This document shows positions 15,407 to 37,343 of a stretch of 64,000 nt of DNA, piece after piece; within the stretch, counting starts at the first letter, position 1; the number at the start of each line of letters is the position of its first letter. Source of the DNA: Cohaesibacter intestini (GTDB lineage Bacteria; Pseudomonadota; Alphaproteobacteria; Rhizobiales; Cohaesibacteraceae); NCBI RefSeq assembly GCF_003324485.1, contig NZ_QODK01000001.1, positions 930,001-994,000 on the forward strand. The letters are read 5' to 3'. The notes under the pieces are model-generated. The model made no database searches. It worked only from the letters and a program-made list of their open reading frames with translations, and was not told where the DNA came from. Position numbers and translations under genes: made by a program.

Positions 15407-15422
15407 AGCAAGGCCTATGCCA
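15407..15422 (-). promoter_or_regulatory. Sigma-54 promoter of dctPQM
   Basis: Read on the minus strand, TGGCATAGGCCTTGCT matches the RpoN consensus TGGCACG-N4-TTGCW at 14 positions or so, including the invariant GG and GC with exact 10-base spacing. It lies 178 bases upstream of dctP, and a sigma-54 activator gene (dctD) is divergent to it. Confidence 0.7.
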
Positions 15423-17290: not shown

Positions 17291-17299
17291 ACCGAGCGG

Positions 17300-19027: not shown

Positions 19028-19288
19028 CGTGTCTTCCATCCTGCGGGTCAGGGGACGCAGCAAATGTCCCGGATTGTTGGGCAGAGTGCCATGCGCGCGC
19101 AGGATACGCTTTAGCGTGGATCATGTAGCGGTAGAAATTGTTGTTGCTCCGCTTTGATGGGGCTTTGAGGAGCTGCCATTCTGTTTGCGTCTCTTATTTG
19201 CGGCTATTCGGGTGCCACAGTCACCATTAATCCTTCTCTAATGGGAAATGGGGTAAATGTGGAGCATAGATATTGACGAAGTTGGCCA

Positions 19289-20845
19289 ATGACAGACACT
19301 TCCGCATTCCAGTTCTGGCAGGGTGCCGCGCTTTCAGCGGGCAACCGGCGACAGCTTGATCCTGCATCAAGCCTGTCGATGCGCGTCCTGCATACGGTGC
19401 TCGTCTTTGTTCTGGCCATAACGGTCAGTGCCTTGCCGGTGGCGACCCACTTTGTCAGCATGCCATTGGCCATTGTGACCCAGATTTGTCTGGCCAGCAT
19501 GGTTGCCGTCTATCTGACACCGGCAGCGCCGCTGGTGGTGTTGTTCACGCTGATTTTTCAGAATTTCTTCGTCTCTTTGTTCTCTGACTTTCTCGTCAGC
19601 GCCGATGATTACAATTTCGTCCGTGGCTACAATTTCCTGACGATGATTGTCATCTGGCTGTGGCTGTTTGGCCGGTATGCGCTCAACTGGCGCGACCATG
19701 ATCGCGAGACCAACCGGATCATGGGTGTGGGATTCATCGCTTTCTGCTTGATCGGTGTCTATCTGATCCTTGGCATGGCCAAGAATCCGACCGGAGCGGT
19801 GATCTATCTGCGCAATATCATTGCCCCTTTTGCGCTGTTTCAGATCTATTTTCTGGTCAGTCTGAAATTTCCCACCCGCCTCAATGATCAGATCGTTGCC
19901 TTGACGGGGATCATTGTCGGTTTGGGGTTGATCGAGGCGATTGATCGCTCGCTCTGGATGGACATCACCAATGGCTGGACGCTTTGGACCTTTGGTACGA
20001 CGCAGGACCGACTCAATCTGGTCTGGGATGCGGTTGTCGCCCGGCAAGGAACCGTGATGACCGATATTTTCGATTCCATGCGGGTTCATTTTCTCAACAC
20101 GCCGTTGCTGGGGGATAATGGCTTCACCATTCTGCGGATGAGCGGGCCGAACAATCACGCCATTTCCTATTCCTATCTGCTGTCCATGCTGGCTTTGGTG
20201 ATGATGTTTACCGGCCGGGCCTGGTGGTTTGTGTTTCTGTTTCCGCTGATGCTGCTGTCCAGTGCCAAGGGTGCGCTGATCATGCTGTTGCTTGTCTGCT
20301 GTGCTGCATTGGCACGCTGGCTGTTCGGGGCGATGATCGCTCTGGCCGGGCTGCTGGTGGTGTTGGTCATCTATTTTGTGCTCGGGGTGAAGATCGGCCT
20401 CGATATTGGCGACTTTCACGTTCTGGGCTTCATGGGCGGGGTGCATGATTTCCTGTCCAACCCGTTTGGCCGGGGTCTTGGAGACGGGGGCAACTTCACC
20501 ACTGATTTCAGCAAGCTGGACTGGCCTGCCTATCAGGCTGCTGGCCGGACACCCTTTGCGATTGAAAGTGCGGTCGGGGTGTTGATGCGGCAAATGGGCA
20601 TTGCCGGCTTCATGCTGCTTGGATGCTATGCATGGGTGGCAGCACAGACCTTCAAGCTGTCACTGCAATCACGCGTGATGCTGCATTCCGTGCTGAGCTT
20701 CAGCCTGATGATCATTCTGGTGAATGGGGTCTTTCAGGAAGAGGCCTTGTTCGCGCCGATGGCACTTGGGGCCATCATGGCGCTGAATGGCCATGTTCTG
20801 GGCAACTGGCTGCGGGCAGGGGTGCCTGCCCGCTCCGCGGCCTAG
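19289..20845 (+). CDS. O-antigen polymerase/ligase-like polytopic membrane protein
   Basis: This 518-residue protein has about eleven hydrophobic helices and a long periplasmic loop between residues 230 and 295 rich in aromatic residues. The C-terminal part has FGRGLGDGGNFTTDF and an ESAVGVLMRQMG segment, a pattern seen in Wzy polymerases and WaaL-type ligases that handle lipid-linked sugars. No glycosyltransferase or export gene adjoins it, so its polysaccharide is unknown. Its stop codon overlaps that of the convergent regulator gene by four bases. Family placement is by topology and the glycine-rich motif, not by a firm signature. Confidence 0.65.
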   Translation: MTDTSAFQFWQGAALSAGNRRQLDPASSLSMRVLHTVLVFVLAITVSALPVATHFVSMPLAIVTQICLASMVAVYLTPAAPLVVLFTLIFQNFFVSLFSDFLVSADDYNFVRGYNFLTMIVIWLWLFGRYALNWRDHDRETNRIMGVGFIAFCLIGVYLILGMAKNPTGAVIYLRNIIAPFALFQIYFLVSLKFPTRLNDQIVALTGIIVGLGLIEAIDRSLWMDITNGWTLWTFGTTQDRLNLVWDAVVARQGTVMTDIFDSMRVHFLNTPLLGDNGFTILRMSGPNNHAISYSYLLSMLALVMMFTGRAWWFVFLFPLMLLSSAKGALIMLLLVCCAALARWLFGAMIALAGLLVVLVIYFVLGVKIGLDIGDFHVLGFMGGVHDFLSNPFGRGLGDGGNFTTDFSKLDWPAYQAAGRTPFAIESAVGVLMRQMGIAGFMLLGCYAWVAAQTFKLSLQSRVMLHSVLSFSLMIILVNGVFQEEALFAPMALGAIMALNGHVLGNWLRAGVPARSAA

Positions 20846-21615
20846 ACGACAAACAGCTTGGCCCCATGCTGGTCGAGCTGCATCTTGATGTCGGTTGGCG
20901 GTGTGCCATCGGTGAAAAGCGCAGAGATGTTGCGGACATGACCAAGCTCCACCGTCGCGGTGGTGTTGAACTTGGTGGAATCGGCAGCGATGAAAATGTT
21001 GCGGGCGGTTTTCATCATGCTCTGGACCATGATGACTTCATTGAATTCATAATCGAGCAAGGTGCCATCGGCGTCGATGGAGCCGCAACTGGCGATCAGA
21101 TAATCAACCCGGAAATGATTGATGAAGTCCAAAGCCGTTGAGCCGATGATGCCGCCATTGGTGCTGCGCAATTTGCCGCCGGGCACCATCACATTGAAGT
21201 CTTTCTTCTGATACAGCACATTGGCGACCCGCATGCTGTTGGTGATGACCTGCAGGCCGGAATGTTGCAGCAGATGGCGGGCGATGATTTCGGTGGTGGT
21301 GCCGATGGCCAGAAAGACCGAGCTGTTGTCCGGGATCTGGGCGACCAAAGCCTTGGCGATGGCCTCCTTTTCTTCCGTCTCGGATACCTGCCGGACCGCA
21401 TAGTCAAGATTGACCACCGAGGAATTGCGCGCAGCCCCGCCATGATGGCGAATCAGCAGTTTCTGATCGCTCAGTTTTTTGATGTCGCGTCGAATGGTCT
21501 GGGCGGAAACATCGAGCAGCTCGGTCAACTCCTCCACGCTCACATAACCCTTGTCGTTGACTTCCTTGAGCAGGGTGTCGTGGCGGGGATTGCCTACGAT
21601 GACGGCATTTGGCAT
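20842..21615 (-). CDS. DeoR-family regulator, CsqR/YihW-like
   Basis: This 257-residue repressor has an N-terminal winged helix-turn-helix (GNPRHDTLLKEVNDKGYVSV, then ELLDVSAQTIRRDIKKLSDQ) and a C-terminal sugar-phosphate-sensing domain with AIGTTTEIIARHLL, ITNSMRVANVL and VMVPGGKLRSTNGGIIG. The long match I recognise is to E. coli YihW (CsqR), the SQ-responsive regulator of the yih genes, including the GNPRHD start and RHHGGA motif. It follows the kinase gene by 84 bases on the same strand. The effector is probably SQ or a sulfosugar phosphate (inferred). Confidence 0.9.
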   Translation of the reverse strand: MPNAVIVGNPRHDTLLKEVNDKGYVSVEELTELLDVSAQTIRRDIKKLSDQKLLIRHHGGAARNSSVVNLDYAVRQVSETEEKEAIAKALVAQIPDNSSVFLAIGTTTEIIARHLLQHSGLQVITNSMRVANVLYQKKDFNVMVPGGKLRSTNGGIIGSTALDFINHFRVDYLIASCGSIDADGTLLDYEFNEVIMVQSMMKTARNIFIAADSTKFNTTATVELGHVRNISALFTDGTPPTDIKMQLDQHGAKLFVV

Positions 21616-21699
21616 GGGACTTCAGCTTTCTTCCTGCATGCTTGCTATTCGCGCAGCGTTCGGGTCTGCCCCAGTCTCATAAGAGGTTGGGCCAGGGGA

Positions 21700-22593
21700 T
21701 TATTTGTTGGCCGCAAGAAAGGCCTCGACAGTTGCAAGGTCGGGGACGCCATCACGTCCGCCCAGTCGGGTGCATTTGAGGGCAGCGACCGCGCTGGCAA
21801 AGGCGACAATATCGGCAATGGGCATGCCCTTGGCGAGCGCAAAGGCAAAGGCGCCATGGAAGACGTCTCCCGCACCGGTCGTATCCTTCACATCGACCTT
21901 GAAACCGGGCTGATGGTGGAGCGTCTCGCCCTCCAGCCAATAGCAGCCTTGCGATCCAACGGTGACATAGACCTTAGCATTTGTTTTCGTTTGGGCAACG
22001 CGCAATCCATCAATCGGGTCATCAACTTGTGAGAATTTCGCCAAACCTGGTTCGGAAAATGCCACATGGTCGGCGAGTGTCACCAGATCCGTGATGTCTT
22101 GCGGGGTGATATCGGCATCCAGAACGCTTTGTTTTTGCAGCTGTTTGGCTTGTTCGAGTGCATATTTGGCCCCGACTGGCCAGCGCACATCACAAAGGAT
22201 GGACTGATAGGGCGCGAAATTGATCTCTTTTAGCCATTCGGCATCACCTGAGAGATCTGAATCCTGATAATTGACGATCAGCCTTTCGCCTTGGTCATCA
22301 ACCAGAATGGCGGAAAAGGACGACTTTGCTTCGGATATGGTGCGGATATGGCGGGTGCCGACGCCATAGCGATTGAGCTCGCGAATCATGGCGGCGGCGA
22401 CATCATCATTGCCGACCCGGCCGACATAGTCGACATTCATGCCCAGTCTGGCAATGGCGACGGCCGCGGTGGCCGCTGGCCCGCCGCCAACTTCAAAATA
22501 GTCGCGGGCGACATATTTGCCGCCGGTTTTTGGCAAGTGATCGACCCGGAAAACCCGATCAAGGACGGTGATTCCAACGCATGCGACGGTCAT
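21700..22593 (-). CDS. yihV: Sulfofructose kinase (YihV-like, PfkB family)
   Basis: This 297-residue ribokinase-fold enzyme should phosphorylate 6-deoxy-6-sulfofructose (SF) with ATP to SF-1-phosphate. The sequence follows E. coli YihV closely from memory: VACVGITVLDR, KYVARDYFEVGGGPAATAAVA, AKSSFSAILVD, LDADITPQDI and the catalytic DTTGAGDVFHGA with its base aspartate, then AALKCTRLGGRDGVPD. Those segments go beyond the general PfkB signature. It is divergent from the sulfolactaldehyde reductase across 313 bases and precedes the regulator gene. A general fructokinase role is the alternative, made unlikely by the neighbours. Confidence 0.92.
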   Translation of the reverse strand: MTVACVGITVLDRVFRVDHLPKTGGKYVARDYFEVGGGPAATAAVAIARLGMNVDYVGRVGNDDVAAAMIRELNRYGVGTRHIRTISEAKSSFSAILVDDQGERLIVNYQDSDLSGDAEWLKEINFAPYQSILCDVRWPVGAKYALEQAKQLQKQSVLDADITPQDITDLVTLADHVAFSEPGLAKFSQVDDPIDGLRVAQTKTNAKVYVTVGSQGCYWLEGETLHHQPGFKVDVKDTTGAGDVFHGAFAFALAKGMPIADIVAFASAVAALKCTRLGGRDGVPDLATVEAFLAANK

Positions 22594-22789
22594 GAGAGGC
22601 TCTTTTATGGCTGGTGTTGGCGATTATCGCTCATCCTCGCTGCCAGATCGTCAATCTGGTGACAGCGTGGATGGGGCGATGATGGGTGTGTTTGTGATCA
22701 AAGTCCATGATCGTGCCAAACGACTTGTGGGCCGCCTGGGATGATCTTTTGCTGATCACATCTAGCGACAAATACCTAGATTTGTTGCC

Positions 22790-22848
22790 TTTCAATCGAA
22801 ATTATCACCATAAACACTCATAAAACAACCAAATTGTGTTGTATTTGG
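22790..22848. promoter_or_regulatory. Candidate operator region between kinase and reductase genes
   Basis: In the 313-base divergent gap I see three elements: TTTCAATCGAAAT at 22790-22802 (reverse complement carries TTTCGATTGA), CATAAAACAA at 22819-22828, and the inverted repeat CCAAAT-N8-ATTTGG at 22829-22848. The first recurs at 25683 and 35267, the second at 35223, all in promoter regions of the same locus. They are candidate sites for the DeoR-family regulator; binding is inferred. Confidence 0.4.
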
Positions 22849-22906
22849 TCGAAATATCGTGCAGATGTTGGATAACGATCAAAAATGCTCAATATGAGGT
22901 TTCGCA

Positions 22907-23800
22907 ATGGCAACAGTTGGATTCATCGGTCTTGGTCAAATGGGCGCTGCAATGGCAGCCAATCTGATCAAGGGGGGACATGACCTCAATCTATATGACA
23001 TCAATGATGATGCCGTCGCGGCGTTGGCCGCAAAAGGTGGGAAAGCCTGCGACAGGGTCGCAGCGGTTGCTGAAGGCGCCGACTTTGTCATTACCATGTT
23101 GCCAAACGGGGCGCTGGTGCGCTCTGTCCTGTTGGGGGAAGAGGGCGTTGTCGCTGCGCTGAAGAAAGACGCGCTGGTGATCGACATGTCGACCATTCAC
23201 CCGCTTGAGACCGATGGCCTGATTGCCGATCTTGCGGCAAAAGGCATCGAGATGATGGAAGCGCCGGTGGGTCGCACATCGGACCATGCCATTGCAGGCA
23301 CCTTGCTGATCCTTGCGGGCGGCACCAAGGCGCAGATTGAACGGGCGCAGCCCTTGTTTGATCTGATGGGGTCGGAAACCGTCGATGCGGGGGGGCCGGG
23401 CAAGGGAATCCGCGTCAAGATCATCAACAATTACATGAGCATTGCGCTCAATGCCCTGTCGGCAGAAGCCATTGCGCTGGCCGAGAAAATCGGTCTCGAT
23501 TTCGACACGGCAATGGCGGTGATGAGCGGTACGCCTGCAGGCAAGGGGCACTTCACCACCAGTTGGCCAAACAAGGTGCTCAAGGGCGATCTGTCGCCCG
23601 CCTTCATGATTGATCTGGCCCACAAGGATCTGGGCATCGCGCTCGATCTGGCCAATCAGGTTGGCGTGCCGATGCCGATGGGGGCTGCCTCGCGGGAGCT
23701 TTACAATATGAGCCGGATCGCCGGGCGCGGGCGTCAGGACTGGACAGCCTTGCTTGAACAACTGCGCGATCTGTCGGGCATGCCGACCAAAGCGAATTAA
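22907..23800 (+). CDS. yihU: 3-Sulfolactaldehyde reductase (YihU-like)
   Basis: This 297-residue beta-hydroxyacid dehydrogenase should reduce sulfolactaldehyde with NADH to 2,3-dihydroxypropane-1-sulfonate (DHPS). The Rossmann motif is [16 protein letters not shown], followed by ITMLPNG and [10 protein letters not shown]. The substrate segment reads [12 protein letters not shown] with arginine 123. The catalytic lysine is 171 in [22 protein letters not shown], with asparagine 174 and serine 178. The blocks [13 protein letters not shown] and [19 protein letters not shown] match YihU far more closely than tartronate semialdehyde reductases. It leads the plus-strand operon, 21 bases before the mutarotase. 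Confidence 0.93.
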
Positions 23801-23821
23801 GTGTCAGTTGGGAGGTTTATC

Positions 23822-24877
23822 ATGAAAGTAGAAGTCGAAACCTATGGTGAAGTCGATGGCAAAGCGGTCGATCTCATCACCTTGAGCAATGACAATGGCA
23901 TGGTGGTGCGGGTCACCAATTATGGCTGCATCGTCACTTCGATCGAAGTACCGGACCGGGATGGGGCTTTGGCCGATGTGGTGTTGGGCTATGAGTCTCT
24001 GGACAAATATCTTGCCGGACATCCTTTCTTCGGCGCAATTGCCGGGCGGTTCGCCAACCGGATAGAGGATGGTCGTTTTTCGATTGATTGTCGCCGGTAT
24101 CAGCTGGAAACCAACGAGCCGCCGACCGTGCAGCATTTGCATGGGGGTTCGAAGGGGTTCGACAAATATGTCTGGGGCTATGATCTGGAAGAGACGAGTG
24201 ACGCGGTGATGATCCATTTGCATCGGGTGTCGCCGGACGGGGAAAGCGGCTATCCGGGCAATCTGCTGGTGACTCACACGATCGGTCTGACGGAGTCCAA
24301 CGCGCTGCATTATGACTTCCGGGCGGTGAGTGACAAGCCGACCATCGTCAATCTGGTCAATCACAGCTACTACAATCTAGCCGGTCATGACAGCGGCTCG
24401 GTGGCGGATCATCAATTGACCTTGTTCGCCGATTTCTACACTCCCGTGGCTGAGACGATGATCCCGACCGGGGAAGTGCGGGCTGTGGCCGGGACGGGCC
24501 TTGATTTCCGGGAGCCAGTGCGGATCGGTGACCGGATGGAAGGCATCGAGGGCGGCGGCTTCGACTTCAACTATATCCTGCATGGCAAACAGAAGCATGG
24601 GGACTACCGGATGGCGGCCGACCTTTATGATCCGTCCAGCGGGCGCTTCATGAAGGTGATGACCACCCAGCCAGCGATCCAGTTCTACAACGGATTCAAA
24701 TTATCGAACAAACCGTGGTTTGGGCGCAATGGCTGCAAATATGAAGCCTTTGGCGGGCTTTGCCTTGAAACTCAAGGCTATCCGGACGCGCCCAACAAGC
24801 CCCATTTTCCAAGCGCCGTGTTGAGGCCGGGGGATGTCTATCAGCATCGCACCATTCATCAGTTTGGCACGCGCTAG
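23822..24877 (+). CDS. Aldose 1-epimerase, probable sulfoquinovose mutarotase
   Basis: This 351-residue GalM-fold epimerase interconverts alpha and beta anomers of a free sugar. Catalytic blocks are present: FANRIEDGRF, VQHLHGGSKGFDK, the histidine in VNHSYYNLAGHDSG and the glutamate in CLETQGYPDAPNKP. The start at 23822 is set by GGGAGG six bases before it. Within this locus the substrate is probably SQ released by the glycosidase, the job done in E. coli by the related YihR. It is longer than YihR and resembles ordinary GalM, so the sulfosugar specificity is inferred from context. Confidence 0.88.
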   Translation: MKVEVETYGEVDGKAVDLITLSNDNGMVVRVTNYGCIVTSIEVPDRDGALADVVLGYESLDKYLAGHPFFGAIAGRFANRIEDGRFSIDCRRYQLETNEPPTVQHLHGGSKGFDKYVWGYDLEETSDAVMIHLHRVSPDGESGYPGNLLVTHTIGLTESNALHYDFRAVSDKPTIVNLVNHSYYNLAGHDSGSVADHQLTLFADFYTPVAETMIPTGEVRAVAGTGLDFREPVRIGDRMEGIEGGGFDFNYILHGKQKHGDYRMAADLYDPSSGRFMKVMTTQPAIQFYNGFKLSNKPWFGRNGCKYEAFGGLCLETQGYPDAPNKPHFPSAVLRPGDVYQHRTIHQFGTR

Positions 24878-24940
24878 ACTTGGACCGTTCAATGGGTCGG
24901 GGGAGACGATCCCGGCCCTGTCACCGCAGGCAATGTCATC

Positions 24941-25681
24941 ATGATGGAAATTCTCATCGTCTCGGCGATCATCACGCTGGGCAGCTTCACCCAAGGCCTG
25001 ACGGGTTTTGGGCTGGCCTTGGTCAGCGTGCCGCTTCTCTCCTTGGCGGTGGATGTGAAAGCTGCTGTGCCCATCGCTGGCATCTTCGGATGGCTGGTGA
25101 CCTTTCCGCTGGTCTGGAAAATGCGCCAGCATGTGCAGTGGCGTGTCGGCTTGATTCTGTTTGCAGGCTCCTTGCCAGGCTCGTTTCTGGGGGCCGATCT
25201 GCTCAAACGGCTGCCCGCCGAGGCAATCCTGATCACGATGGGATGCGTGCTGATCTTGTCGAGCCTCTATTCGCTGTTTGCTAAGGCCCCGCTTTTCACC
25301 AAGGCGTCGGCGCCGCTGACGGTCGGGACGGGTTTCTTCTCCGGTGCCTTGGGGGCGAGCGTTGGCGAGCCGGGACCGCCGGTGATTGCCTTCACCTCGA
25401 TGCAGCCCTGGACGGCGGATCAGACCAAATCGACCTTGGTGTTTTTCTTTATGCTGCAAATGATCGGCGCGATTGCCGGCTTCTGGAGCAAGGGGCTGCT
25501 GACCCCTTATGTGGCAGAGCGGGTGCTCTATGCCATGCCTGCCTTTCTGGTCGGGATGAGCGTTGGGATGTTCGCCTATCACCTGCTGCATAAACTCAAG
25601 ATCAATTATCACGGCATCATTCACAGCCTGTTGCTGATCATTGGTCTCCTATTGGTGATTAAAAATGTCCATATTTGGTAG
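24941..25681 (+). CDS. TauE/SafE-family anion exporter
   Basis: This 246-residue protein has about eight membrane helices in two repeats, with the family's glycine-proline loops (TQGLTGFGLALVSVP in the first half; GALGASVGEPGPPVIAF in the second). TauE/SafE proteins export sulfite, sulfoacetate and other organosulfonates. Placed directly after the reductase and mutarotase, it most likely exports DHPS, the end product of the pathway. E. coli uses the unrelated YihP in this position of the pathway. The gap to the mutarotase is 63 bases, so one transcript is plausible. Confidence 0.88.
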   Translation: MMEILIVSAIITLGSFTQGLTGFGLALVSVPLLSLAVDVKAAVPIAGIFGWLVTFPLVWKMRQHVQWRVGLILFAGSLPGSFLGADLLKRLPAEAILITMGCVLILSSLYSLFAKAPLFTKASAPLTVGTGFFSGALGASVGEPGPPVIAFTSMQPWTADQTKSTLVFFFMLQMIGAIAGFWSKGLLTPYVAERVLYAMPAFLVGMSVGMFAYHLLHKLKINYHGIIHSLLLIIGLLLVIKNVHIW

Positions 25682-25682
25682 C

Positions 25683-25695
25683 TTTGATTGAAAAT
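25683..25695 (+). promoter_or_regulatory. Candidate operator motif upstream of the aldolase
   Basis: TTTGATTGAAAAT lies just after the exporter stop, about 250 bases before the aldolase. It shares TTTYGATTGA with motifs at 22790 (reverse strand) and 35267. The 260-base gap suggests a second promoter for the aldolase. No other feature is seen there. Confidence 0.3.
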
Positions 25696-25941
25696 ATGTG
25701 CAGAATTGTTGTTAAACGCTCATATTTTTGGCAAAAGACTTTCGAAAAAGATCATGTGTCTCTATACTCTGATCAAGAAAGAAACAATCAGGCCGGACGG
25801 AGTCGTCGGGTCTTTTGTCCGGCAGATTTGCTGATGATGACCCATCTGCGGTCCCTTCGCTCCCTGCCTTCCAATCGCTCTGACCGTGTGGCACCTCTTT
25901 TTGCGCTGCCTGATCCAGAGGCCTAAAGTTGAGGATAAACA

Positions 25942-26805
25942 ATGGCTTATATTTCCGGTAAGACACTTCTCGATCGTGCGTGGAAAGAGGGATATGCCAT
26001 CGGCGCCTTCAGCGTGCATAATGCGGAGACGACGCGCGCCATTCTCAAGGGCGCCGAGGAAGAGAAAGCCCCGATTCTGGTGATGATCGGTCAGAAGGTG
26101 ATCAACACGATGGGCCTTGCGGAAATGAAGGCGATGGTTGATGCCTTCATGGCCAACCATACGGTGCCGGTGGCGATTCATATTGATCACAGTCGCCAGT
26201 TCGAACAAACCATGGCGGCAGCGCGGGTCGGCTTTCACTCTCTGATGTTCGACGGCTCGGGCTATGATTTCGAGGATAATGTCCGGATCACCAAGGCGGT
26301 GGCTGATGTGGCCCATGCGCTGGGCATTGGTTGTGAAGGGGAAATCGGCAAGATCGGTGGTGTCGAGGATGATATTGATGTCGATGAAGCCGATGCCATG
26401 ATCACCTCAGTCGAGGAAGCGCAGGAATTTACCAACCGCACCGGCCTTGACTATCTGGCCATCTCCATGGGAACGGCGCATGGTATCTACACCTCCGAGC
26501 CAAAGCTGGCTTTTGATCGGATCCGTGAAATCAAGGAAATCGTTCAGAAACCTCTGGTGATGCATGGGGGCTCCGGGGTGCCGGATGATCAGGTGCAGCG
26601 GGCCATTTCCCTGGGCATCGCAAAAATCAATGTCGACACCGAGTTGCGGCAATCCTTCACGCTTGGGGTGCAGGACTATTGGAAAGACAATCCGACGGAC
26701 TTCGTTCTGGCCGATTCTTTGGGGGCCGGCGAGGTGGCCATGAAGGAAAAGGTCAAAGAAAAGATCCGCTTGTTTGGTTCCAGCGGCAAGGCTTCCGATT
26801 TCTGA
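25942..26805 (+). CDS. Class II aldolase, probable sulfofructose-1-phosphate aldolase
   Basis: This 287-residue zinc aldolase belongs to the GatY/KbaY/FbaA family. The general acid aspartate 82 and zinc ligand histidine 83 (IHIDHS), zinc histidines 180 (GTAHG) and 208 (VMHGGSG), and glutamate 132 (CEGEIG) all sit at the family's expected numbers. The phosphate loop HGGSGVPDD is intact. It should cleave SF-1-phosphate to DHAP and sulfolactaldehyde. E. coli does this step with the class I enzyme YihT, which is absent here. Tagatose- or fructose-bisphosphate cleavage is the alternative. A GAGG site precedes the ATG and a terminator follows. Confidence 0.88.
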   Translation: MAYISGKTLLDRAWKEGYAIGAFSVHNAETTRAILKGAEEEKAPILVMIGQKVINTMGLAEMKAMVDAFMANHTVPVAIHIDHSRQFEQTMAAARVGFHSLMFDGSGYDFEDNVRITKAVADVAHALGIGCEGEIGKIGGVEDDIDVDEADAMITSVEEAQEFTNRTGLDYLAISMGTAHGIYTSEPKLAFDRIREIKEIVQKPLVMHGGSGVPDDQVQRAISLGIAKINVDTELRQSFTLGVQDYWKDNPTDFVLADSLGAGEVAMKEKVKEKIRLFGSSGKASDF

Positions 26806-26839
26806 TTGTATCTTCTCTGCAAAATTGTTTTGTCGTCAG

Positions 26840-26866
26840 CCCCGGTCCTTGTGGCCGGGGTTTTTT
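26840..26866 (+). terminator. Terminator of the aldolase transcript
   Basis: The stem CCCCGG / CCGGGG around a nine-base loop is followed by six T residues, 35 bases after the aldolase stop. Confidence 0.85.
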
Positions 26867-27029
26867 GTGTCTGACATGCTTGGCACCACACCAGAATATG
26901 TCCTGCACAATCGAGTGATTGCCCGTTTTTTGGGCTTTCGGTTACAGTCTTTTTGGGACTATTCTGGCCCTTCCTCCCCCACCGGGCCGCAACTGCCGCC
27001 CGCTTTTTTTGTTTCAGGAAACATAATCT

Positions 27030-28421: not shown

Positions 28422-28445
28422 CGCCAATCCAGTCCTCAGACAAGC

Positions 28446-28482
28446 AAAAGCCCCGCAGGCATGACCAGCCTGCGGGGCTTTT
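28446..28482. terminator. Bidirectional terminator between the membrane protein and the sulfoquinovosidase
   Basis: A perfect 15-bp stem, AAAAGCCCCGCAGGC / GCCTGCGGGGCTTTT, with a seven-base loop provides T tracts on both strands between the two convergent genes. Confidence 0.9.
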
Positions 28483-28502
28483 CAGTGGGGTTCGGCAGTG
28501 TT

Positions 28503-30524
28503 TCAGGCGAGGCCTTTGGCAATGTCGGGGATCTTGTTGAACAGAACCGCGTCTGCGCTGCTGGCGCGGTAGAAGACTGCAGGTTGGCCCAGCGGCGCGT
28601 CGACCTCGACCCAGCCGCCCTCATAATGGTCATTGGTCCAGAGATGAATCCATTGGTCGGGCGGCAGATAGAGTTTGCGCTTGCTGGCACCCTGCTCATA
28701 GACCGGGGCAACGAGGCAATCGCGGCCAAACAGATATTGATGCATCACCTCGTAGGACTCAGTATCCTCTTCATAATGAATGAAGAGAGGCCGCTGGACG
28801 GGCATGCCGGTGAGGGTGTTTTCCTTCAAGGCCGCTTTGATATAGGGCTTCAAATGGGTGAAGATCCGGGTCATAGCGGCGAGATGGGCGAGGGTCTCAT
28901 TGTCGCTGTCAAATTGATGATTGTCAGCGGGGCGGTTGCCTTCATGGCTGCGCATGATCGGGGTGAAGGCGGCCATTTCGGCCCAGCGCATAAAGAGCTC
29001 GCGGTCGCGTTTCATACCGTGCAAGGTGGTATAGCCGCCAATATCGGAATGATGGATGCCATTGCCGAGCAGGCCTGAGGACAGCGCCCCATTGATCACG
29101 GACGGGATGCCGTCATCAATGTTCCAGTTGACGCATTGATCGCCGCCCCACAGGGCGTGGCAATAGCGCTGAATGCCCGTATAGCCCGCACGCATGAAGA
29201 AGAGGATATCGTCGGTCTTGCCCGCTTCCTCGATGGCGTCATGGTTGATTTTGGCCCAGCGGGTCGGCCAGTGATTATGCTCGATTTCGGCCGACACCCC
29301 GTTCGACAAAGCGCAATCGGTGGGCAGATACTCGCCAAAGTCAGCCATCCAACCCGACAGGCCAAAGTCGATCATGTTGGTCTTGATGACGCCCTTATAC
29401 CAGTCGCAGGCCGCCGGGTTGGTGAAGTCGACGACGCCGCAATAAAATTCGCCAAAATCAACGACATATTTGCTGCCATCGTCGCGGGTGGCGAGATAGC
29501 CGTTGGCTTCGGCCTCGCGGTAAAGGGGGAAATCCTCCAGCACATAGGGATTGATATAACCAAGGAAGCGGATGCCGTCTTTTTTGAGGGCATGAATTTC
29601 CCTGTCGAGGCCGGGATAGAGGTCTTCGTTCCACTGCCAGTCCCATTGCAGGCGCTTGCCGAAGCTGGTCATTTTGATGCCCTGCCAGTCCTGACACCAG
29701 GCACCAGACACTTTCACGCCTGCGGCGCGGGCGCGTTTGAGCTTTTCGATGGTGATGTCGGTGCCGCCCTGAATGCCCAGAATGACCCCGTCGAGCACCC
29801 AGTCGGGTAGCTCAGGCTGGGTGCCAAAGATTCCGGTGATGCTGCGAATGAGGGCGGGGAAGCTGTCGGCGGCATCGAACAGGAGATAGTCGGGGATGTT
29901 CCAGCTTTGCAGCTCATGGAAATCGGCGTTGCAGAAGTCGAAATCCGCATAGGCGGTGGTTTCCAGATGAACGAAATACTTCTCCGACGAGACAAAGGTC
30001 GGCTGCGGATAGTTGGTGTTGTAATAGTCGCCGCCGGCGCGGTCCTTCACATCGGCCTGCCATGTGACATAGGTCGATTTGTTGCGGCCGACGCCGGGCT
30101 CAGAGGTCCAGAGCGGGAAATTGTGGCCGCGCAGATTGAGATAGGTGAGCTGTTCGCCGCAGCCATAGATCTTTTCATCGGCGCTGGCGCAAAGCCGGAG
30201 CCAGAAGCGGTTGAAATTGGCTTTGGCCTCAAGGAAGCTGATTTTGAGGCGGCCTTCGGCGGTTTCTTCGGCCAGCAAGGTGATGACCGGTTCGTGGGCC
30301 AAGATGAATTGGATCCGGATGGCTCCATCCTGCTTCTCTATGGTGAAGTGGCGCATGGCGATGCGCTCGACCAGATAATCCGAAATATCGAAATTGCCGC
30401 GATACATGTCAAAGGTTGGATCGCCTTCACCCAAATAGAGCGCTGGTGCTTTTTCAGAATGGCGCAACAAGGCTTTGCCTTTGTGGGAGAGGAGAAAGCC
30501 GGTTTTTGATTGTTCGATTTTCAT
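28503..30524 (-). CDS. yihQ: Sulfoquinovosidase (GH31, YihQ-like)
   Basis: This 673-residue GH31 glycosidase should release SQ from SQ-glycerol or sulfolipid head groups. The nucleophile aspartate is 395 (GWMADFGEYLP) and the acid/base aspartate is 462 (LWGGDQCVNW). The sulfonate-recognition residues known from E. coli YihQ are all kept: arginine 291 and tryptophan 294 (SFGKRLQWDW) and tyrosine 498 (HHSDIGGYTTL). Every one lies exactly ten below the E. coli number (405, 472, 301, 304, 508), a strong sign of true orthology rather than an alpha-glucosidase. No signal peptide is seen, so it acts in the cytoplasm. It is last in the minus-strand operon. Confidence 0.95.
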   Translation of the reverse strand: MKIEQSKTGFLLSHKGKALLRHSEKAPALYLGEGDPTFDMYRGNFDISDYLVERIAMRHFTIEKQDGAIRIQFILAHEPVITLLAEETAEGRLKISFLEAKANFNRFWLRLCASADEKIYGCGEQLTYLNLRGHNFPLWTSEPGVGRNKSTYVTWQADVKDRAGGDYYNTNYPQPTFVSSEKYFVHLETTAYADFDFCNADFHELQSWNIPDYLLFDAADSFPALIRSITGIFGTQPELPDWVLDGVILGIQGGTDITIEKLKRARAAGVKVSGAWCQDWQGIKMTSFGKRLQWDWQWNEDLYPGLDREIHALKKDGIRFLGYINPYVLEDFPLYREAEANGYLATRDDGSKYVVDFGEFYCGVVDFTNPAACDWYKGVIKTNMIDFGLSGWMADFGEYLPTDCALSNGVSAEIEHNHWPTRWAKINHDAIEEAGKTDDILFFMRAGYTGIQRYCHALWGGDQCVNWNIDDGIPSVINGALSSGLLGNGIHHSDIGGYTTLHGMKRDRELFMRWAEMAAFTPIMRSHEGNRPADNHQFDSDNETLAHLAAMTRIFTHLKPYIKAALKENTLTGMPVQRPLFIHYEEDTESYEVMHQYLFGRDCLVAPVYEQGASKRKLYLPPDQWIHLWTNDHYEGGWVEVDAPLGQPAVFYRASSADAVLFNKIPDIAKGLA

Positions 30525-30581
30525 GGCACTGGATCCACTGCAGGGGCATTGGGGAAGAGGCGTTTTGGCGCTTTCGTGAAA

Positions 30582-30603
30582 AGGGGGCGGATGGCCGCCC
30601 CCT
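30582..30603 (-). terminator. Intercistronic hairpin between dctP-like and sulfoquinovosidase genes
   Basis: AGGGGGCGG / CCGCCCCCT with a four-base loop lies 24 bases after the stop of the binding-protein gene and ends in a four-T run on the minus strand. It may partly terminate or protect the transcript, giving more binding protein than glycosidase. It could also serve the plus strand, where six T residues follow four bases later, although no gene there needs it. Confidence 0.6.
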
Positions 30604-30626
30604 GATCTTTTTTGCTCGCAAAAAGC

Positions 30627-31679
30627 TTATTTGGAAGCGGCGTCGAAGTCTGAGTCGAGCTTGGCTTCGCAGGCCTTGATTTCTTTTTCAAAGCGGTCGA
30701 GCCATGCTTTGCCTTCGTCGCCAGCGCTGGCCAGATAGAAGTCTTTCACAGGCGCGGTTGCTTCCTGGAAGGCTTTCTTCTCGGCTGCACTTGGGGTGTA
30801 GATGGTGCCGCCAGCCTTGCGGAAGGTGTCGTAAGCGTCGAATTCTTTCCATTTTGGATAGACGCGCAGGAACTGGTTCTGGGCGGCTACGCCATCAATG
30901 ACGACGCGTTTCAGCTCATCCGGGAAGCCGGCGAAGCGGTCGTTGTTCATCACCCAGACGCCGCCCATATAGGCGTGGCCGTCGAGCACCAGATATTTGA
31001 GGCTTTCCTCGAATTTCATGGTGGTGATGTCAACGATGCCATTTTTGGTGCCATCAACCACGCCAGTGGACAGAGCAGTGTAGACTTCTGGCCATGCGAT
31101 CGGGGTTGGGGCGCCGCCAAGGGCCTTGACCAATTCCTGCTGGATTGGGGCAGGCACGGTGCGGATTTTGAGGCCAGCCACGTCAGCAGGGGATTTGATC
31201 TGCTTTTTGGTGGTGGCGAAGTTGCGCCAGCCGCCGGAGTTGGAGACCATCATCAGGCGGACATTCTGGGTGGCGTCGAGCACATTTTTGCGGACGTCGG
31301 CAAGGAAGGCTTCATTGTCATAGACGCATTCGGCAACCCGGTCATCGCGCAGCATGTAAGGCAGGTCGAAACCACCGGCAGGGGCCCAGAAATTGGCCAG
31401 CTCGGCAATGGTGGTCTGGAAATAGTCAAAGATGCCAGACTGGACACCGGAGAGACATTCACGGGCATTGCCACACAGCTGGCCGCCGGGGAAGATTTCG
31501 ACTTCGATGGCACCATTGGAATGGTTTTCGACAAAGTTCTTGAAGACCAGCAGGGACTGGTGATTGTAGCTGTCCGTGTTGGACACATGGGGCACGGTGA
31601 GCTTGTAGTCGGCAGCCTGTGCGGTTCCTGCCATGAAGCCGGCGGCGAGAAGCGCAAGACCCAGTTTTTTCAGTTTCAT
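30627..31679 (-). CDS. TRAP periplasmic binding protein, probably for sulfoquinovose or its glycoside
   Basis: This 350-residue solute receptor has a signal peptide ending in AGTAQAA before DYKLTVPHVSN. The DctP-type core is seen in AGLKIRTVPAPIQQELVKALGG and WPEVYTALSTGVVDGTKNG. The start at 31679 is fixed by GGAGG five bases upstream. It lies in one minus-strand operon with the isomerase, both TRAP permeases and the sulfoquinovosidase, so uptake of SQ or SQ-glycerol is the best reading. The substrate is inferred from position only. Two cysteine pairs (GGQLCGNARECLSG and others) are unusual for DctP proteins and might form disulfides. Confidence 0.88.
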   Translation of the reverse strand: MKLKKLGLALLAAGFMAGTAQAADYKLTVPHVSNTDSYNHQSLLVFKNFVENHSNGAIEVEIFPGGQLCGNARECLSGVQSGIFDYFQTTIAELANFWAPAGGFDLPYMLRDDRVAECVYDNEAFLADVRKNVLDATQNVRLMMVSNSGGWRNFATTKKQIKSPADVAGLKIRTVPAPIQQELVKALGGAPTPIAWPEVYTALSTGVVDGTKNGIVDITTMKFEESLKYLVLDGHAYMGGVWVMNNDRFAGFPDELKRVVIDGVAAQNQFLRVYPKWKEFDAYDTFRKAGGTIYTPSAAEKKAFQEATAPVKDFYLASAGDEGKAWLDRFEKEIKACEAKLDSDFDAASK

Positions 31680-31754
31680 CTTTACCTCCAATGGTAAAAT
31701 CGCGCTGGCGTTGTGTGGTTGTTAGACGCCAGCCTCCTCCAGGATTTCCGCGCC

Positions 31755-33044
31755 CTACATCATGCCCAGCAGCTTGGGCAGGCCGATAACGAGGGACGGG
31801 AAGAACGAAATCAGAAAGATCACCAGGAATTCCGCGAGCAAGAAAGGAATGATCGCTCTGGAGATTTTCTGAAGCGGCACACCGGACACGCCGGAAGCGA
31901 CGAACAAGACAAGGCCCATGGGCGGGGTTGCCAGTCCGATGGAAAGATTGACCACCATGACGACGCCGAAATGGACCGGATCAACGCCAACGGCTGTCAT
32001 GATCGGGGCAAGGATCGGAGCGAAGATCAGAATGGCGGGCCCAGCATCTATGAACATGCCGACAATGAACAGGAAGATGTTCATAATGAAGAACAGAACC
32101 AGCGGATCCTTGGTGATCGAATAGAAGAAGGTGGTGATGACCTTGGCAATGCCCGACAGGGAAATGGCAGAGGCAAAGCCACTGGCTGCTGCGACGATGA
32201 TCAGGATGGCGGCGGCATTGATGGCAATGCGCACGAACATCGGGAAGACATCCTTCATCTTCAGAAGACGCATGATGAAGATGGAGAGGATGAAGGCATA
32301 AAAGACGGCGATGGCAGCCGCTTCGGTCGGGGTGAAAATGCCCCCATAGATGCCACCCAGAATGATGACCGGGGTCAAGAGCGGCAGGATGGCTGCCTTG
32401 AAGGCGGCCGAGCGTTCCGGGCGAGAGGCCCGTTCGAATTGCTCAACGGCAGGATATTTCTTGATCTGCCAGCGATTGACCAGCATCAGGGCGACGCAGA
32501 GGATCAGGCCGGGCACAATGCCGGACATAAACATCGCCGCGACCGACGTGTTCATCACGAAGGCATAGATTAGCATGATGCCGCTTGGCGGGATGATGGT
32601 GCCCAGAACGGTCGCCGCCGCCGTGATCGCCGCCGCATAGGTGCGGTCATATTTGTAGCGCTCCATTTCCGGGATCATCATGTTGCCAATGGCCGAGGTG
32701 GCGGCCACAGATGAGCCGGTCAGGGCGCCGAACAGGGTGGCTGCGATGATCACCACATGGCCAAGACCGCCGCGTAGATGCTGGACCATGGTCTGGGAGA
32801 AGGTGATGATGCGGGTGGTGATGCCGCCATTGACCATGAATTCGCCCGCCAGCATGAAGAAGGGCAGGGCGAGCAGCAGAAACACGTCCAGACCAGCATA
32901 AAGCCGCTGGTAGAGCATGTTCATGAACAGCACCTTGTCGGCCTGAAACAGGGCGATGGCTGGCGACAGTCCGAGCGCAAACAGAACCGGCAGACCGATC
33001 AGCAGGAAGGCCAGAAAATAGACGGCAAAGATTGGGGAGACCAT
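31755..33044 (-). CDS. TRAP transporter large permease (SQ locus)
   Basis: This 429-residue DctM-type membrane subunit has about twelve helices. It shows the family motifs PFFMLAGEFMVNGGITTRIIT, LTGSSVAATSAIGNMMIPEM and IGLATPPMGLVLFVAS. It is distinct from the dctM at 12147 and is paired with its own DctQ and DctP. It lies 29 bases after the small permease and 75 bases before the binding-protein gene. It should drive Na+- or H+-coupled uptake of the SQ-type substrate across the inner membrane. Confidence 0.93.
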   Translation of the reverse strand: MVSPIFAVYFLAFLLIGLPVLFALGLSPAIALFQADKVLFMNMLYQRLYAGLDVFLLLALPFFMLAGEFMVNGGITTRIITFSQTMVQHLRGGLGHVVIIAATLFGALTGSSVAATSAIGNMMIPEMERYKYDRTYAAAITAAATVLGTIIPPSGIMLIYAFVMNTSVAAMFMSGIVPGLILCVALMLVNRWQIKKYPAVEQFERASRPERSAAFKAAILPLLTPVIILGGIYGGIFTPTEAAAIAVFYAFILSIFIMRLLKMKDVFPMFVRIAINAAAILIIVAAASGFASAISLSGIAKVITTFFYSITKDPLVLFFIMNIFLFIVGMFIDAGPAILIFAPILAPIMTAVGVDPVHFGVVMVVNLSIGLATPPMGLVLFVASGVSGVPLQKISRAIIPFLLAEFLVIFLISFFPSLVIGLPKLLGMM

Positions 33045-33073
33045 GATGTTCGTCCTTTAGCTTTCTGGATCAA

Positions 33074-33598
33074 TCAAGCCTGTGGCTCTTGTTCGGCGGG
33101 TTTGAAATGGATGAATTGGCGCAGCTCGGAGACGATCTTTTGCAGCGCGGACAGGAGCGTGATACCCATCAGCAACGGCGGGGCGATGTAGATCACATTC
33201 ATGGTGATGGGCAGGCTGTCGGCACGGCTCGAACCGCGGGCAAAGAAGTCATAGCCAAACTTGATCCAGACCAGAAAGGTGAGGATTGCGAGGCAGTGGA
33301 TGAGGATCATCAGAAGATGCTTGATTCGTAAGCCATTTAACGCATCAAGCAGGAAGGTCATGGCGATGTTCTTGTCCTGCAGATAGATGATCGGCAGGCA
33401 GAGATAGACCATATAGATCATCAGGAAGCGCGAGGCTTCATCGGTCCAGCTCAATGGCATGTTGAGGACATAGCGAAACAGGATTTGCAACAGCACAATG
33501 ACGGTCATGACGACCAGCATCGAGCCACCAATCCAGCTGCCCAGTTTGCCGATGGGGCTGTTGATCCTGTTGAGACCCTTTTCAAGCGCTGCAAGCAT
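33074..33598 (-). CDS. TRAP transporter small permease (SQ locus)
   Basis: This 174-residue DctQ-type subunit has four predicted helices, with the signature LSWTDEASRFLMIYMVYLCL in the second helix region. The start at 33598 is chosen because AGGA lies eight bases upstream; a longer reading begins inside a GC-rich hairpin. It follows the isomerase gene by 96 bases, a gap that holds a CGGGCGG / CCGCCCG stem-loop (33636-33658), and precedes the large permease. Confidence 0.9.
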   Translation of the reverse strand: MLAALEKGLNRINSPIGKLGSWIGGSMLVVMTVIVLLQILFRYVLNMPLSWTDEASRFLMIYMVYLCLPIIYLQDKNIAMTFLLDALNGLRIKHLLMILIHCLAILTFLVWIKFGYDFFARGSSRADSLPITMNVIYIAPPLLMGITLLSALQKIVSELRQFIHFKPAEQEPQA

Positions 33599-33694
33599 GG
33601 TGCGATCCTTTTTCAAGCATGCCGTTTGACAGAGGCGGGCGGGGCAGTTGGCCGCCCGACCCAATGCTGAACCCTATTGGCAGGCGCCAATTGG

Positions 33695-35041
33695 TCAGGT
33701 CAGTTCGACGACTTCGATGCCAAGGCGTTTGGCGATGGCGCGCATGATCGGGCGATGCTCGCCATAGGTCAGCGCCGTATGGTGCTCGAGCCCCTCATTG
33801 ATCATCCGGTCAAGGAAGTCTTTGACGGGGATATCCGGTCTGGCGGTGCCAGCGGTGCCGGAAAAGGCCAGTGGAGCCTTGATCATCTCCGCTCCGGCCA
33901 GAAGGAGCCGCAACTTGCCGTGGCCTTGGGAGAAGCGGGCCATGGTGATGCGGCCCGGCTTCAAGGCAAATTCGGACAGGAGCGGCATTTTGCGGTTGGA
34001 ATGGATGGTGCCCTGAATGGTTTGGTCGGTGTCGGCCATGTCGATCGGGGCCTGACCGCAATGCCAGAAGACGATGGAGTCGTCCTCAATGTTGACATCG
34101 ACCAGATCGGTATTGAAGACCGAGCCGCCGGAGGCCTGTTGCAGGGTAAGGGAGGTGACAACCCCCATCATGTCGGCTTCGCAGCCTGCCGGGGTGTGAT
34201 CTTCATTGAGCAGAGCAAGCGCCCCGCAGGCCGCGCAGCCATATTCGACAAAGAAATCCGGCCAGCAGCGGACAGCAACGCCCTTATAGCCCTTTTCATC
34301 GGCTTCCGTGCGCAGCTTGGAATAGACTTTGAGGGTCTTGCGGGTGGCTTCCTGATCCAGCTCGCCGAGATTGGGGAACTGGGCCTTGCTGCGCTCATAG
34401 GGGGCGTCGGCGACGTCATCAGGCAAGGCTTTGACCTGATTGATGAAATCGCTGATGCCAATGCGGTCGACATCGATGCCAAAGCGGGTTTGAAGCTCCT
34501 GCTCATTGAAATTGCAGGCATCAAAGCCGTCGGGATGCTCGCCGACCAGCTTGAGTTTGGCCCCTTGCAATTCATTGACGATGGCACCGGCCTTGGCCAG
34601 AAGCGCGATGTCTTCAATGGCTTTCGGGCTGTCGGCGTCCGCATGGATATAGTCGATGGAAAGATCATTGCGGCTGAGCGCGTGGCTGGCGAGATTGACG
34701 CCGCAGAAGGAATTGAGCCGTAGGCGACCACCGGTGCGGGCTTCGGGGAAAGACCACATGACCAAGGGGGCGTCGATTTCCTTGCCCAATTCGACGGTCA
34801 TGGTTGCGTCGGTGAATGTCACTTGCAGCAGGAGCAGCATGTCAAGTTTTTGCGCTTTGAGCGCAGGCAGTGCACCCAGCACCGCGTCGGCATCGAAGAG
34901 CAACTCCGGCTTGCCAATCAAATCGGCATTGAGGCTTTCCAGAGCGCCCCAGGCTTTGGCCAGAATCTCTTCTGCAAAAGGTACGTCGAAGGTTGGTCGA
35001 CCCAGTGCGACGACACCGATGCATGGTCTTTTTGCTGACAT
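33695..35041 (-). CDS. L-fucose/L-arabinose isomerase-fold protein, probable sulfoquinovose isomerase
   Basis: This 448-residue protein resembles the fucose-isomerase C-terminal family of metal-dependent ketol-isomerases. Visible blocks are GVVALGRPTFDVPFAEE at the N-terminus, YKGVAVRCWPDFFVEYG, the CEADMMGVVTSLTLQ segment with likely metal-binding glutamate and aspartate, and FWHCGQAPIDM with the likely metal-binding histidine. It probably isomerises SQ to sulfofructose, a step done in E. coli by the unrelated YihS, which is absent. The start at 35041 is set by GGAGG six bases upstream. It is first in the isomerase-TRAP-glycosidase operon. Activity on an unmodified sugar is the alternative. 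Confidence 0.85.
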   Translation of the reverse strand: MSAKRPCIGVVALGRPTFDVPFAEEILAKAWGALESLNADLIGKPELLFDADAVLGALPALKAQKLDMLLLLQVTFTDATMTVELGKEIDAPLVMWSFPEARTGGRLRLNSFCGVNLASHALSRNDLSIDYIHADADSPKAIEDIALLAKAGAIVNELQGAKLKLVGEHPDGFDACNFNEQELQTRFGIDVDRIGISDFINQVKALPDDVADAPYERSKAQFPNLGELDQEATRKTLKVYSKLRTEADEKGYKGVAVRCWPDFFVEYGCAACGALALLNEDHTPAGCEADMMGVVTSLTLQQASGGSVFNTDLVDVNIEDDSIVFWHCGQAPIDMADTDQTIQGTIHSNRKMPLLSEFALKPGRITMARFSQGHGKLRLLLAGAEMIKAPLAFSGTAGTARPDIPVKDFLDRMINEGLEHHTALTYGEHRPIMRAIAKRLGIEVVELT

Positions 35042-35222
35042 AGGTTTCCTCCACAATCCTGACAGGCCGTCTTCAAGAGGCCAGATGGTCAGGCACCTCC
35101 CAATGCGCTTAGACCTGCCAAGAGATTTTGTCAGAGCCAACACTAAGTCGATAAACGATCATAGACTATCGGTATAAATGCGTATAAATGGTCATTTCAC
35201 ACAAAAAATGTCATATTAATTC

Positions 35223-35278
35223 CATAAAACAAACATGAATTGACAACTATGCTCAAAAACTGTTGTTTTTTGATTGAG
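35223..35278. promoter_or_regulatory. Candidate operator region upstream of the isomerase operon
   Basis: CATAAAACAA at 35223-35232 repeats exactly an element at 22819, and TTTTGATTGAGG at 35267-35278 shares TTTYGATTGA with 22790 and 25683. The region is AT-rich and lies 180-240 bases upstream of the isomerase start. Regulator binding is inferred. Confidence 0.4.
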
Positions 35279-35279
35279 G

Positions 35280-35645
35280 CGATTGACTGAAAGACCGGAT
35301 CGAATGCGTGGCGGGGCTCGAAGCGATCATGATCGCCAAGCAGAGCGGGCGGAAGTCGTGAAAACCCGCAATTACACTGCTATTTCATGAAGATAGCTGA
35401 GGCCCTCTGTCGCCAACAGACGGGTGATGCAAGCGGAGGCTTGGAATGGGTTTGCCGTTTTTTGGTGATCGCGTGGTAAAAAAGGGACAAGGCCAGCCAT
35501 CCCCACTCGGAAAGCCCCTCAGAAGGGGAGGCTAAACCGGGCTTTGGGTGATTGATGTGTGTTCGTTTCTGAGCGTTTGCCGCCAAACGCGTTGGTCGTT
35601 TGCCCGTTTTCTGCCGCAGGCATATTTTCTTATTCGGGGTGAGCC
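35280..35645. other. Intergenic region with a nested stem-loop
   Basis: About 370 bases lie between the isomerase promoter and the end of the sucrose phosphorylase gene. A possible nested hairpin (AAAGCCC...GGGCTTT enclosing CCCCT...AAGGGG) lies near 35507-35545. A perfect GCGCCTGATC / GATCAGGCGC hairpin at 35646-35668 spans the sucrose phosphorylase stop codon but lacks a T run. No credible coding region was found. Confidence 0.4.
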
Positions 35646-35660
35646 GCGCCTGATCGTCGA

Positions 35661-37136: not shown

Positions 37137-37343
37137 GATGTTGCCCACCCTTCAACGTGTCGCAATGTCTTGATGATAAGGCATTTGCAGCCAAGCGTCA
37201 TGGCTGAGAGCCACAAGGACGCATTTTGTCGGCGCATATGGTTGTTCTGAACGGACCATAGGCCGCGCTGCACCGATGGATCAAGCCCTGCAACGGGCCT
37301 TGCATTGATCGGATGGATGGAGCGATGGTCGTGCTTTGGCGAT

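Follow-up and report, generated by a model that had tools for sequence, protein, structure and literature searches.

A predicted hybrid cluster for sulfoquinovose degradation in Cohaesibacter intestini, with a TRAP transporter and an SqvD-type isomerase

Hybrid gene clusters that mix the sulfoglycolytic Embden–Meyerhof–Parnas (sulfo-EMP) pathway for sulfoquinovose (SQ) with its sulfo-EMP2 variant have been described (PMC9594981, PMC12890257, PMC10991401). In hybrids of Serratia, Hafnia, and Yersiniaceae, SqvD and SqiA replace YihS and YihT (PMC9594981, PMC10991401), and mosaics have been noted in Alphaproteobacteria (PMC10991401). The kinase of Bacillota is SqiK, of the PfkA family, and not YihV (PMC9594981). 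Vibrio mediterranei AbY-1905 was reported in 2026 to grow on SQ with stoichiometric formation of 2,3-dihydroxypropane-1-sulfonate (DHPS); by proteomics, SQ induces a 10-gene SqiA hybrid cluster, and an isomerase mutant loses SQ degradation (PMC13372026). Here, we analyzed a 64,000-nucleotide stretch of the Cohaesibacter intestini genome (contig NZ_QODK01000001.1, positions 930,001 to 994,000; hereafter the window, whose own coordinates are used) and found 11 intact genes at 20842–35041 that make up a full predicted sulfo-EMP route. We consider it highly probable that this is a real, complete, and conserved hybrid sulfo-EMP cluster for SQ, its function being predicted from sequence. An earlier reading of the window (the original prediction) had pointed to variants in other bacteria with isomerases unlike that of E. 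coli and with class II aldolases; hybrids are described in the three papers cited above.

That reading also placed candidates for every step in one block, and all of the genes it named are present and intact. A leftward regulator and PfkB kinase are separated by a divergent gap of 313 bp from a rightward series of reductase, aldose epimerase, and TauE, followed after a gap by a class II aldolase; a second leftward group runs in the order isomerase, DctQ, DctM, DctP, and GH31 glycosidase. The block had been drawn as 20842–35278. Its genes hold, but the isomerase most likely starts at the ATG at 35041 and not further upstream; this ATG follows GGAGG and is kept in all 10 genus genomes with the isomerase. 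The likeliest starts of DctP (31679), DctQ (33598), and the mutarotase (23822) were chosen by their ribosome-binding sites or by the position at which the match to relatives sets in. The features are as follows (aa, amino acids; SFP, sulfofructose-1-phosphate; TRAP, tripartite ATP-independent periplasmic).

20842–21615, minus strand: csqR-type DeoR-family regulator, 257 aa; DeoR Pfam domains; 54% identity to E. coli CsqR over 242 aa
21700–22593, minus strand: probable yihV sulfofructose kinase, PfkB family, 297 aa; 59% identity to YihV
22594–22906: divergent control region; box AACGATCAAA at 22874; inverted repeat ACAAC..GTTGT at 22825
22907–23800, plus strand: probable yihU sulfolactaldehyde reductase, 297 aa; 67% identity to YihU; NCBIfam PRK15461
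23822–24877, plus strand: GalM-type aldose 1-epimerase, probable SQ mutarotase, 351 aa; Pfam Aldose_epim
24941–25681, plus strand: TauE/SafE-family membrane protein, probable sulfonate (DHPS) exporter, 246 aa; Pfam TauE, 1.5e-24
25682–25941, plus strand: sqiA upstream region; box AACGCTCATA at 25715
25942–26805, plus strand: probable sqiA class II (metal) SFP aldolase, 287 aa; matches 8q57/8q58; DHSR at residues 82–85
28503–30524, minus strand: probable yihQ GH31 sulfoquinovosidase, 673 aa; 54% identity to YihQ; NCBIfam PRK10426
30627–31679, minus strand: TRAP solute-binding protein DctP, 350 aa; Pfam DctP
31755–33044, minus strand: TRAP large permease DctM, 429 aa; Pfam DctM
33074–33598, minus strand: TRAP small permease DctQ; Pfam DctQ
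33695–35041, minus strand: probable SqvD/SftI-type SQ isomerase, AraA/FucI fold, 448 aa; NCBIfam SftI, below cut-off
35042–35660, minus strand: promoter region of the isomerase–TRAP–GH31 group; box AACGATCATA at 35154

Four of the proteins were said to stand close to E. coli, and they do: when 13 window proteins were compared with those of strain MG1655, identity was 54% to CsqR, 59% to YihV, 67% to YihU, and 54% to YihQ. YihS and YihT had no match beyond chance among these 13 proteins, as expected from the claim that the isomerase and aldolase belong to other families. The predicted importer and exporter, also claimed to be unlike YihO and YihP, are here a TRAP system (DctPQM) and TauE. The reductase passes NCBIfam PRK15461 (481 bits, cut-off 348) and the glycosidase PRK10426 (988 bits, cut-off 553). 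Among solved structures, the top match of the kinase is sulfofructose kinase 7ag6 (368 bits; the next scores 191), that of the reductase is sulfolactaldehyde reductase 6sm7, and that of the glycosidase is the GH31 enzyme 8r56, with YihQ (5aed) second. Residues equivalent to YihQ R301, W304, Y508, D405, and D472, to YihU R123, K171, N174, and S178, and to YihV K27, N109, and R138 are all retained; we take these to be the sulfonate and catalytic contacts. As the kinase belongs to the PfkB family, it is not the PfkA-family SqiK of sulfo-EMP2. No signal peptide was seen by eye in the glycosidase, which seems to be cytoplasmic. The mutarotase matches YihR over 39 residues only (31% identity), and its gene recurs in all nine genus loci examined and in the SQ-type clusters of five Vibrionaceae, two Serratia, and Zymomonas.

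The aldolase and isomerase point to the sulfo-EMP2 variant. The aldolase matches structures 8q57 and 8q58 at 417 bits, with the next structure at 240; their deposited names are tagatose or ketose-bisphosphate aldolases, and they are presumably the SqiA structures of Yersinia and Hafnia. From a scan of named genomes, we surveyed the best 80 loci, 27 of them with all queries and all 80 for four SQ genes; for the aldolase motif, an SQ gene means a GH31, isomerase, YihS, or YihV match. The window's aldolase has the motif DHSR, as do all 20 aldolases of loci with an SQ gene, and none of the 60 from loci without one, all of which have DHG, although the motif may partly track kinship. DHSR is thus a residue signature that separates SQ-linked from other class II aldolases in the examined set, and it may already be described in other published work on SqiA. 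For the isomerase, a Foldseek search with an AlphaFold model (mean predicted local distance difference test, pLDDT, 90.7) found L-arabinose isomerase AraA (template-modeling score, TM, 0.84) and L-fucose isomerase FucI (1fui, TM 0.80). E288, D312, and H421 are retained in 34/34 sequences, and the spacing of 24 between the first two equals that of the metal ligands of FucI. Identity to Bacillota SqvD homologues is 27–32%. This identity, the fold, the retained residues, and the SftI match given below together assign the isomerase to the SqvD type of sulfo-EMP2. YihV and YihU therefore stand beside both SqiA and SqvD, the gene content of a hybrid, and the cluster is predicted to convert SQ to DHPS. 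Identity, curated models, solved relatives, residues, and gene content all agree with the enzyme-by-enzyme sulfo-EMP reading, with an EMP2-type isomerase and aldolase, that had been proposed.

The gene-neighborhood check suggested with that proposal gives the same answer. The isomerase is held by 10 of 18 genus genomes, and the same ten hold the aldolase. Apart from csqR, present in eight, all of the genes (10 of 11) occur together in each of the nine relatives' loci, which excludes chance. Some findings nevertheless weigh against the reading of a complete SQ cluster. The match of the isomerase to the NCBIfam sulfoquinovose isomerase SftI (1.2e-86, 291 bits) lies under the cut-off of that model (700), and a sequence search gave no solved relative of this enzyme. 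The 20 DHSR aldolases are also those most similar to the window's (54–67% identity, as opposed to at most 47% for the others among the best 80 loci), so motif and kinship are not independent of each other. Finally, csqR is absent from the stretch fetched from genome G387 (L037).

The survey was extended to a plasmid collection, in which neighbors were checked in L054 and L055, and to 385 class genomes, one of them the window's own. Among the latter, the aldolase was found at 1e-80 in the window's own genome only and the isomerase in 11, again counting the window's own; the loci of 8 of the 10 others were examined. For one neighboring protein, the best relatives on plasmids (48–50%) come from Methylobacterium, Sinorhizobium, Shinella, and Rhizobium, in keeping with an alphaproteobacterial host. 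Over the best 80 loci, the plasmid collection, and the 385 class genomes, TRAP, SqiA, and an SqvD-type isomerase occur together in the genus only. Of the clusters found elsewhere, those of Vibrionaceae come nearest, sharing TRAP, SqiA, YihV, and YihU with the window. Five of the SqiA loci found outside the genus are of this family, from Photobacterium sp. DA100 (plasmid; L054), P. rosenbergii (L059), V. mediterranei isolate 50 (L066), Vibrio sp. 99-8-1 (L069), and Vibrio sp. ES.051 (L079). DctQ, DctM, and YihS are encoded in 5/5 and DctP in 4/5; in the fetched stretches, YihQ is found in 2/5 and TauE in 3/5 (both Photobacterium and L079). In L066, ten genes lie side by side (csqR-yihV-yihU-mutarotase-yihS-sqiA-dctQ-dctM-dctP-yihQ), the isomerase gene being the fifth, and the AbY-1905 isomerase is likewise the fifth of ten locus tags if the tags step by five (PMC13372026). 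With species, gene number, and isomerase position in common, L066 very probably is the proven AbY-1905 cluster. The main text of PMC13372026 uses none of the words TRAP, tripartite, transporter, exporter, and permease. The Cohaesibacter cluster thus ties a very probably proven Vibrio pathway to an importer that goes unmentioned there. Whether the combination was known had been left open in the original prediction. Hybrids were known, and the core of TRAP, SqiA, YihV, and YihU exists in Vibrionaceae, but its combination with an SqvD-type isomerase was found in the genus only.

Trees were built from chosen rows, with five of the nine genus relatives and selected others. The genus groups with Vibrionaceae in the GH31 tree (100/100, 8 rows), less firmly in the kinase tree (80/94, 11 rows), and in the DctP tree, whose remaining rows all come from same-class loci. 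In the isomerase tree, it groups with Serratia and Zymomonas (100/100, 9 rows). DctPQM may found a TRAP family for sulfosugars or their glycosides in the genus and Vibrionaceae, and swappable isomerase, importer, and exporter modules may surround a fixed YihV–YihU–SqiA–CsqR core that moved between the two groups; this proposal could equally turn out right or wrong.

Two further kinds of cluster were seen in the survey. The TRAP-fed SqiA clusters of Photobacterium (L054 and L059) gave no YihQ match in the 20–25 kb fetched and may consequently use free SQ or a glycosidase encoded elsewhere. A Zymomonas mobilis plasmid (L055; NC_022913.1, 34 kb) carries at 5791–18110 a hybrid SQ-type cluster with a YihV-like kinase, SqiA (64% identity), a mutarotase, an SqvD-type isomerase (57%), a Gfo/Idh/MocA oxidoreductase, two major facilitator superfamily carriers, a TonB receptor, and an aldehyde dehydrogenase, and gave no YihU match. 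No paper found for Zymomonas together with sulfoquinovose names either of them in its title or abstract.

With regard to transport, the cluster offers one defined TRAP system and one TauE protein as candidates. DctP, DctQ, and DctM are encoded together as a TRAP transporter. DctP is 61–72% identical to the DctP of four Vibrionaceae SQ clusters, and DctM is 70–78% identical to that of five; compared with same-class isomerase loci, DctM reaches 48% over its full length (L015) and 51–55% over half its length (L017–L019). TRAP genes are linked to SQ-type genes in the genus, in Vibrionaceae, and in four other same-class loci, and this linkage strongly suggests SQ or one of its glycosides as the cargo of DctPQM. 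Three residues of DctP, two Arg and one Asn (in GGWRNF, LKIRT, and KNG), align with the presumed Arg156, Arg177, and Asn217 of the isethionate binder IseP, numbered as binding residues in PMC11668362. Such residues are general to TRAP binders and not sulfonate-specific, and among solved structures, DctP matches a sialic acid binder best; both facts speak for caution, and the residues consequently permit a sulfonate cargo but do not prove it. Among the papers listed in the literature searches, none was seen to deal with a TRAP importer for SQ; other published work on SqiA may already show a TRAP-fed cluster.

TauE probably exports DHPS, judging from its linkage and from proposals for other bacteria. 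It is present in 9/9 genus loci, in both Photobacterium clusters, and in Vibrio sp. ES.051. In the stretches fetched from V. mediterranei and Vibrio sp. 99-8-1, TauE is absent, and it is therefore not essential to this kind of cluster. The absence from these two Vibrio stretches also favors another version of the same pathway, in which the cargo of TauE is sulfite or sulfolactate and a different carrier takes DHPS out, for instance, the 463-aa membrane protein encoded at 27030–28421. A Cupriavidus TauE bears the title of sulfite exporter and was proposed for sulfolactate (PMC8873060). However, TauE is kept throughout the genus loci and in both Photobacterium clusters, the gene families of the cluster include none expected to make sulfite or sulfolactate, and the 463-aa protein is found in one of nine relatives only. 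The search for sulfite routes was limited to Xsc, which gave four matches in the window's own genome, none above the cut-off, and 14 control genomes behaved alike. We regard this alternative as tenable but somewhat doubtful, and DHPS as the probable cargo of TauE.

It is very unlikely that the locus handles a different sulfosugar or sugar (e.g., sulfofucose or a phosphorylated sugar) and only resembles an SQ route. The families of the PfkB kinases and of the class II aldolases are both broad, and a sulfofucose pathway exists in a Paracoccus (PMC12421959), but SQ-pathway enzymes are by far the best solved matches of the kinase and reductase, and the glycosidase retains the equivalents of R301, W304, and Y508. 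These are not all kept in the GH31 enzymes of two loci compared with it: in L015, none of the three is present, and in L016, which has no TRAP genes, R301 alone remains, so these loci may act on another sugar. L015 (3607–13866) and L017–L019, all of the same class, carry TRAP, an SqvD-type isomerase, a YihV-like kinase, a CsqR-like regulator, and a class I YihT-like aldolase.

Least probable of all is that the sucrose phosphorylase-like GH13 gene at 35661–37148 (minus strand) encodes an SQ-glycerol phosphorylase of the system: it is the isomerase's neighbor on the same strand and its solved relatives include a glucosylglycerol phosphorylase, but it passes the NCBIfam sucrose phosphorylase model (448 bits, cut-off 334), adjoins the cluster in just two genomes (the window's own and G396), is either over 400 kb away or on a different contig in the other eight genus genomes with both, and occurs in G386 and G399 without an SqiA match. 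Present in 12 of 18 genus genomes and linked to the cluster in one of nine relatives, it was rejected as unlinked in the rest of the genus. The 463-aa membrane protein (27030–28421, plus strand), between sqiA and yihQ, was also rejected as a core part because it is in one of nine relatives' loci; it gave no Pfam or NCBIfam family, and its place is taken in L036 by a BCCT-like transporter and in L034 by other membrane proteins (labeled by eye). Base composition lends no support to a recent foreign origin (GC 0.562, as compared with 0.557 and 0.565 on the flanks). Elsewhere in the window, a second TRAP large permease (12147–13421, minus strand) and a sigma-54 response regulator with a dCache sensor kinase (15950–19063) look like a dicarboxylate-type system of their own.

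From the genes, their families, their diagnostic residues, and their conserved linkage, all directly observed, we infer the substrates of every enzyme of the predicted SQ route. DctP would catch SQ glycosides (e.g., SQ-glycerol) or SQ in the periplasm, and DctQM would import them. The GH31 enzyme, apparently cytoplasmic, would release alpha-SQ, whose ring the GalM-type epimerase would open or turn. A metal-dependent SqvD-type isomerase would convert SQ to sulfofructose (SF), YihV would phosphorylate SF, and the metal-dependent SqiA would split SF-1-phosphate into dihydroxyacetone phosphate and sulfolactaldehyde. YihU would reduce the latter to DHPS, which TauE would probably export. CsqR may repress the transcription units through AACG(A/C)TCA(A/T)A-like boxes until SQ or a derivative binds.

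The regulatory role of these boxes is suggested by their positions. AACGMTCAWA has three sites in the 64 kb, one in each promoter region of the cluster (22874, 25715, and 35154); shuffled sequence gave a mean of 0.47 and reached three in 1/100, a figure that flatters the pattern because it was made after looking. The shorter ACGMTCAWA also matches once elsewhere in the window, at 52420. Among the nine genus relatives, the box is found in the kinase–reductase gap of eight, 5′ of sqiA in seven, and 5′ of the isomerase in four, and ACAAATACGATCAAAAACAGAC is identical in the kinase–reductase gap of E. coli and both Serratia. Two points tell against the box as operator: the pattern was chosen after inspecting these regions, and it is missing from the kinase–reductase gap of all five Vibrionaceae loci and of Budvicia. 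The inverted repeat ACAAC..GTTGT, a possible operator, is in this gap in six of nine genus relatives and three of five Vibrionaceae loci, and not in that of E. coli, Serratia oryzae, or Budvicia; in S. microhaemolytica, it sits at the edge of the kinase gene. Hairpins resembling terminators were called after the aldolase (26838–26862) and, on the plus strand, between dctP and the glycosidase (30582–30603), among 29 such sites with 14.5 expected. A promoter scan was uninformative because it found 10 where 7.3 were expected, and Rfam gave no match above the gathering score over 20000–36000.

When set beside known systems, the locus shares with the E. coli yih cluster the predicted intermediates and orthologues of YihQ, YihV, YihU, and CsqR, whereas YihS, YihT, YihR, YihO, and YihP are replaced by other families or a distant member. 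With Bacillota sulfo-EMP2, it shares the class II SqiA (54–64% identity) and SqvD (27–32%). Its TRAP system resembles isethionate IsePQM in sulfonate import, as predicted here, and in the aligned Arg and Asn residues (PMC11668362), but the cargo of IsePQM is a C2 sulfonate and not a sulfosugar, and DctP matches IseP at only 123 bits. The hybrids of Serratia, Hafnia, and Yersiniaceae share csqR, yihV, yihU, SqiA, a GalM-type mutarotase, and an SqvD-type isomerase (62–64%), with yihQ in two Serratia loci, but those of S. oryzae and S. microhaemolytica (L057 and L058) have YihO and YihP for transport, not TRAP and TauE. The Vibrionaceae clusters share csqR, yihV, yihU, the mutarotase, SqiA, and TRAP, in nearly the same order in 4/5, and their YihQ, where present, is 71–72% identical to the window's. 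Their isomerase is YihS, unlike the SqvD type of the window, and beyond Photobacterium, TauE is found only in Vibrio sp. ES.051, about 4 kb from the mutarotase gene. The Cohaesibacter cluster is consequently a new combination of known modules and not a new kind of system.

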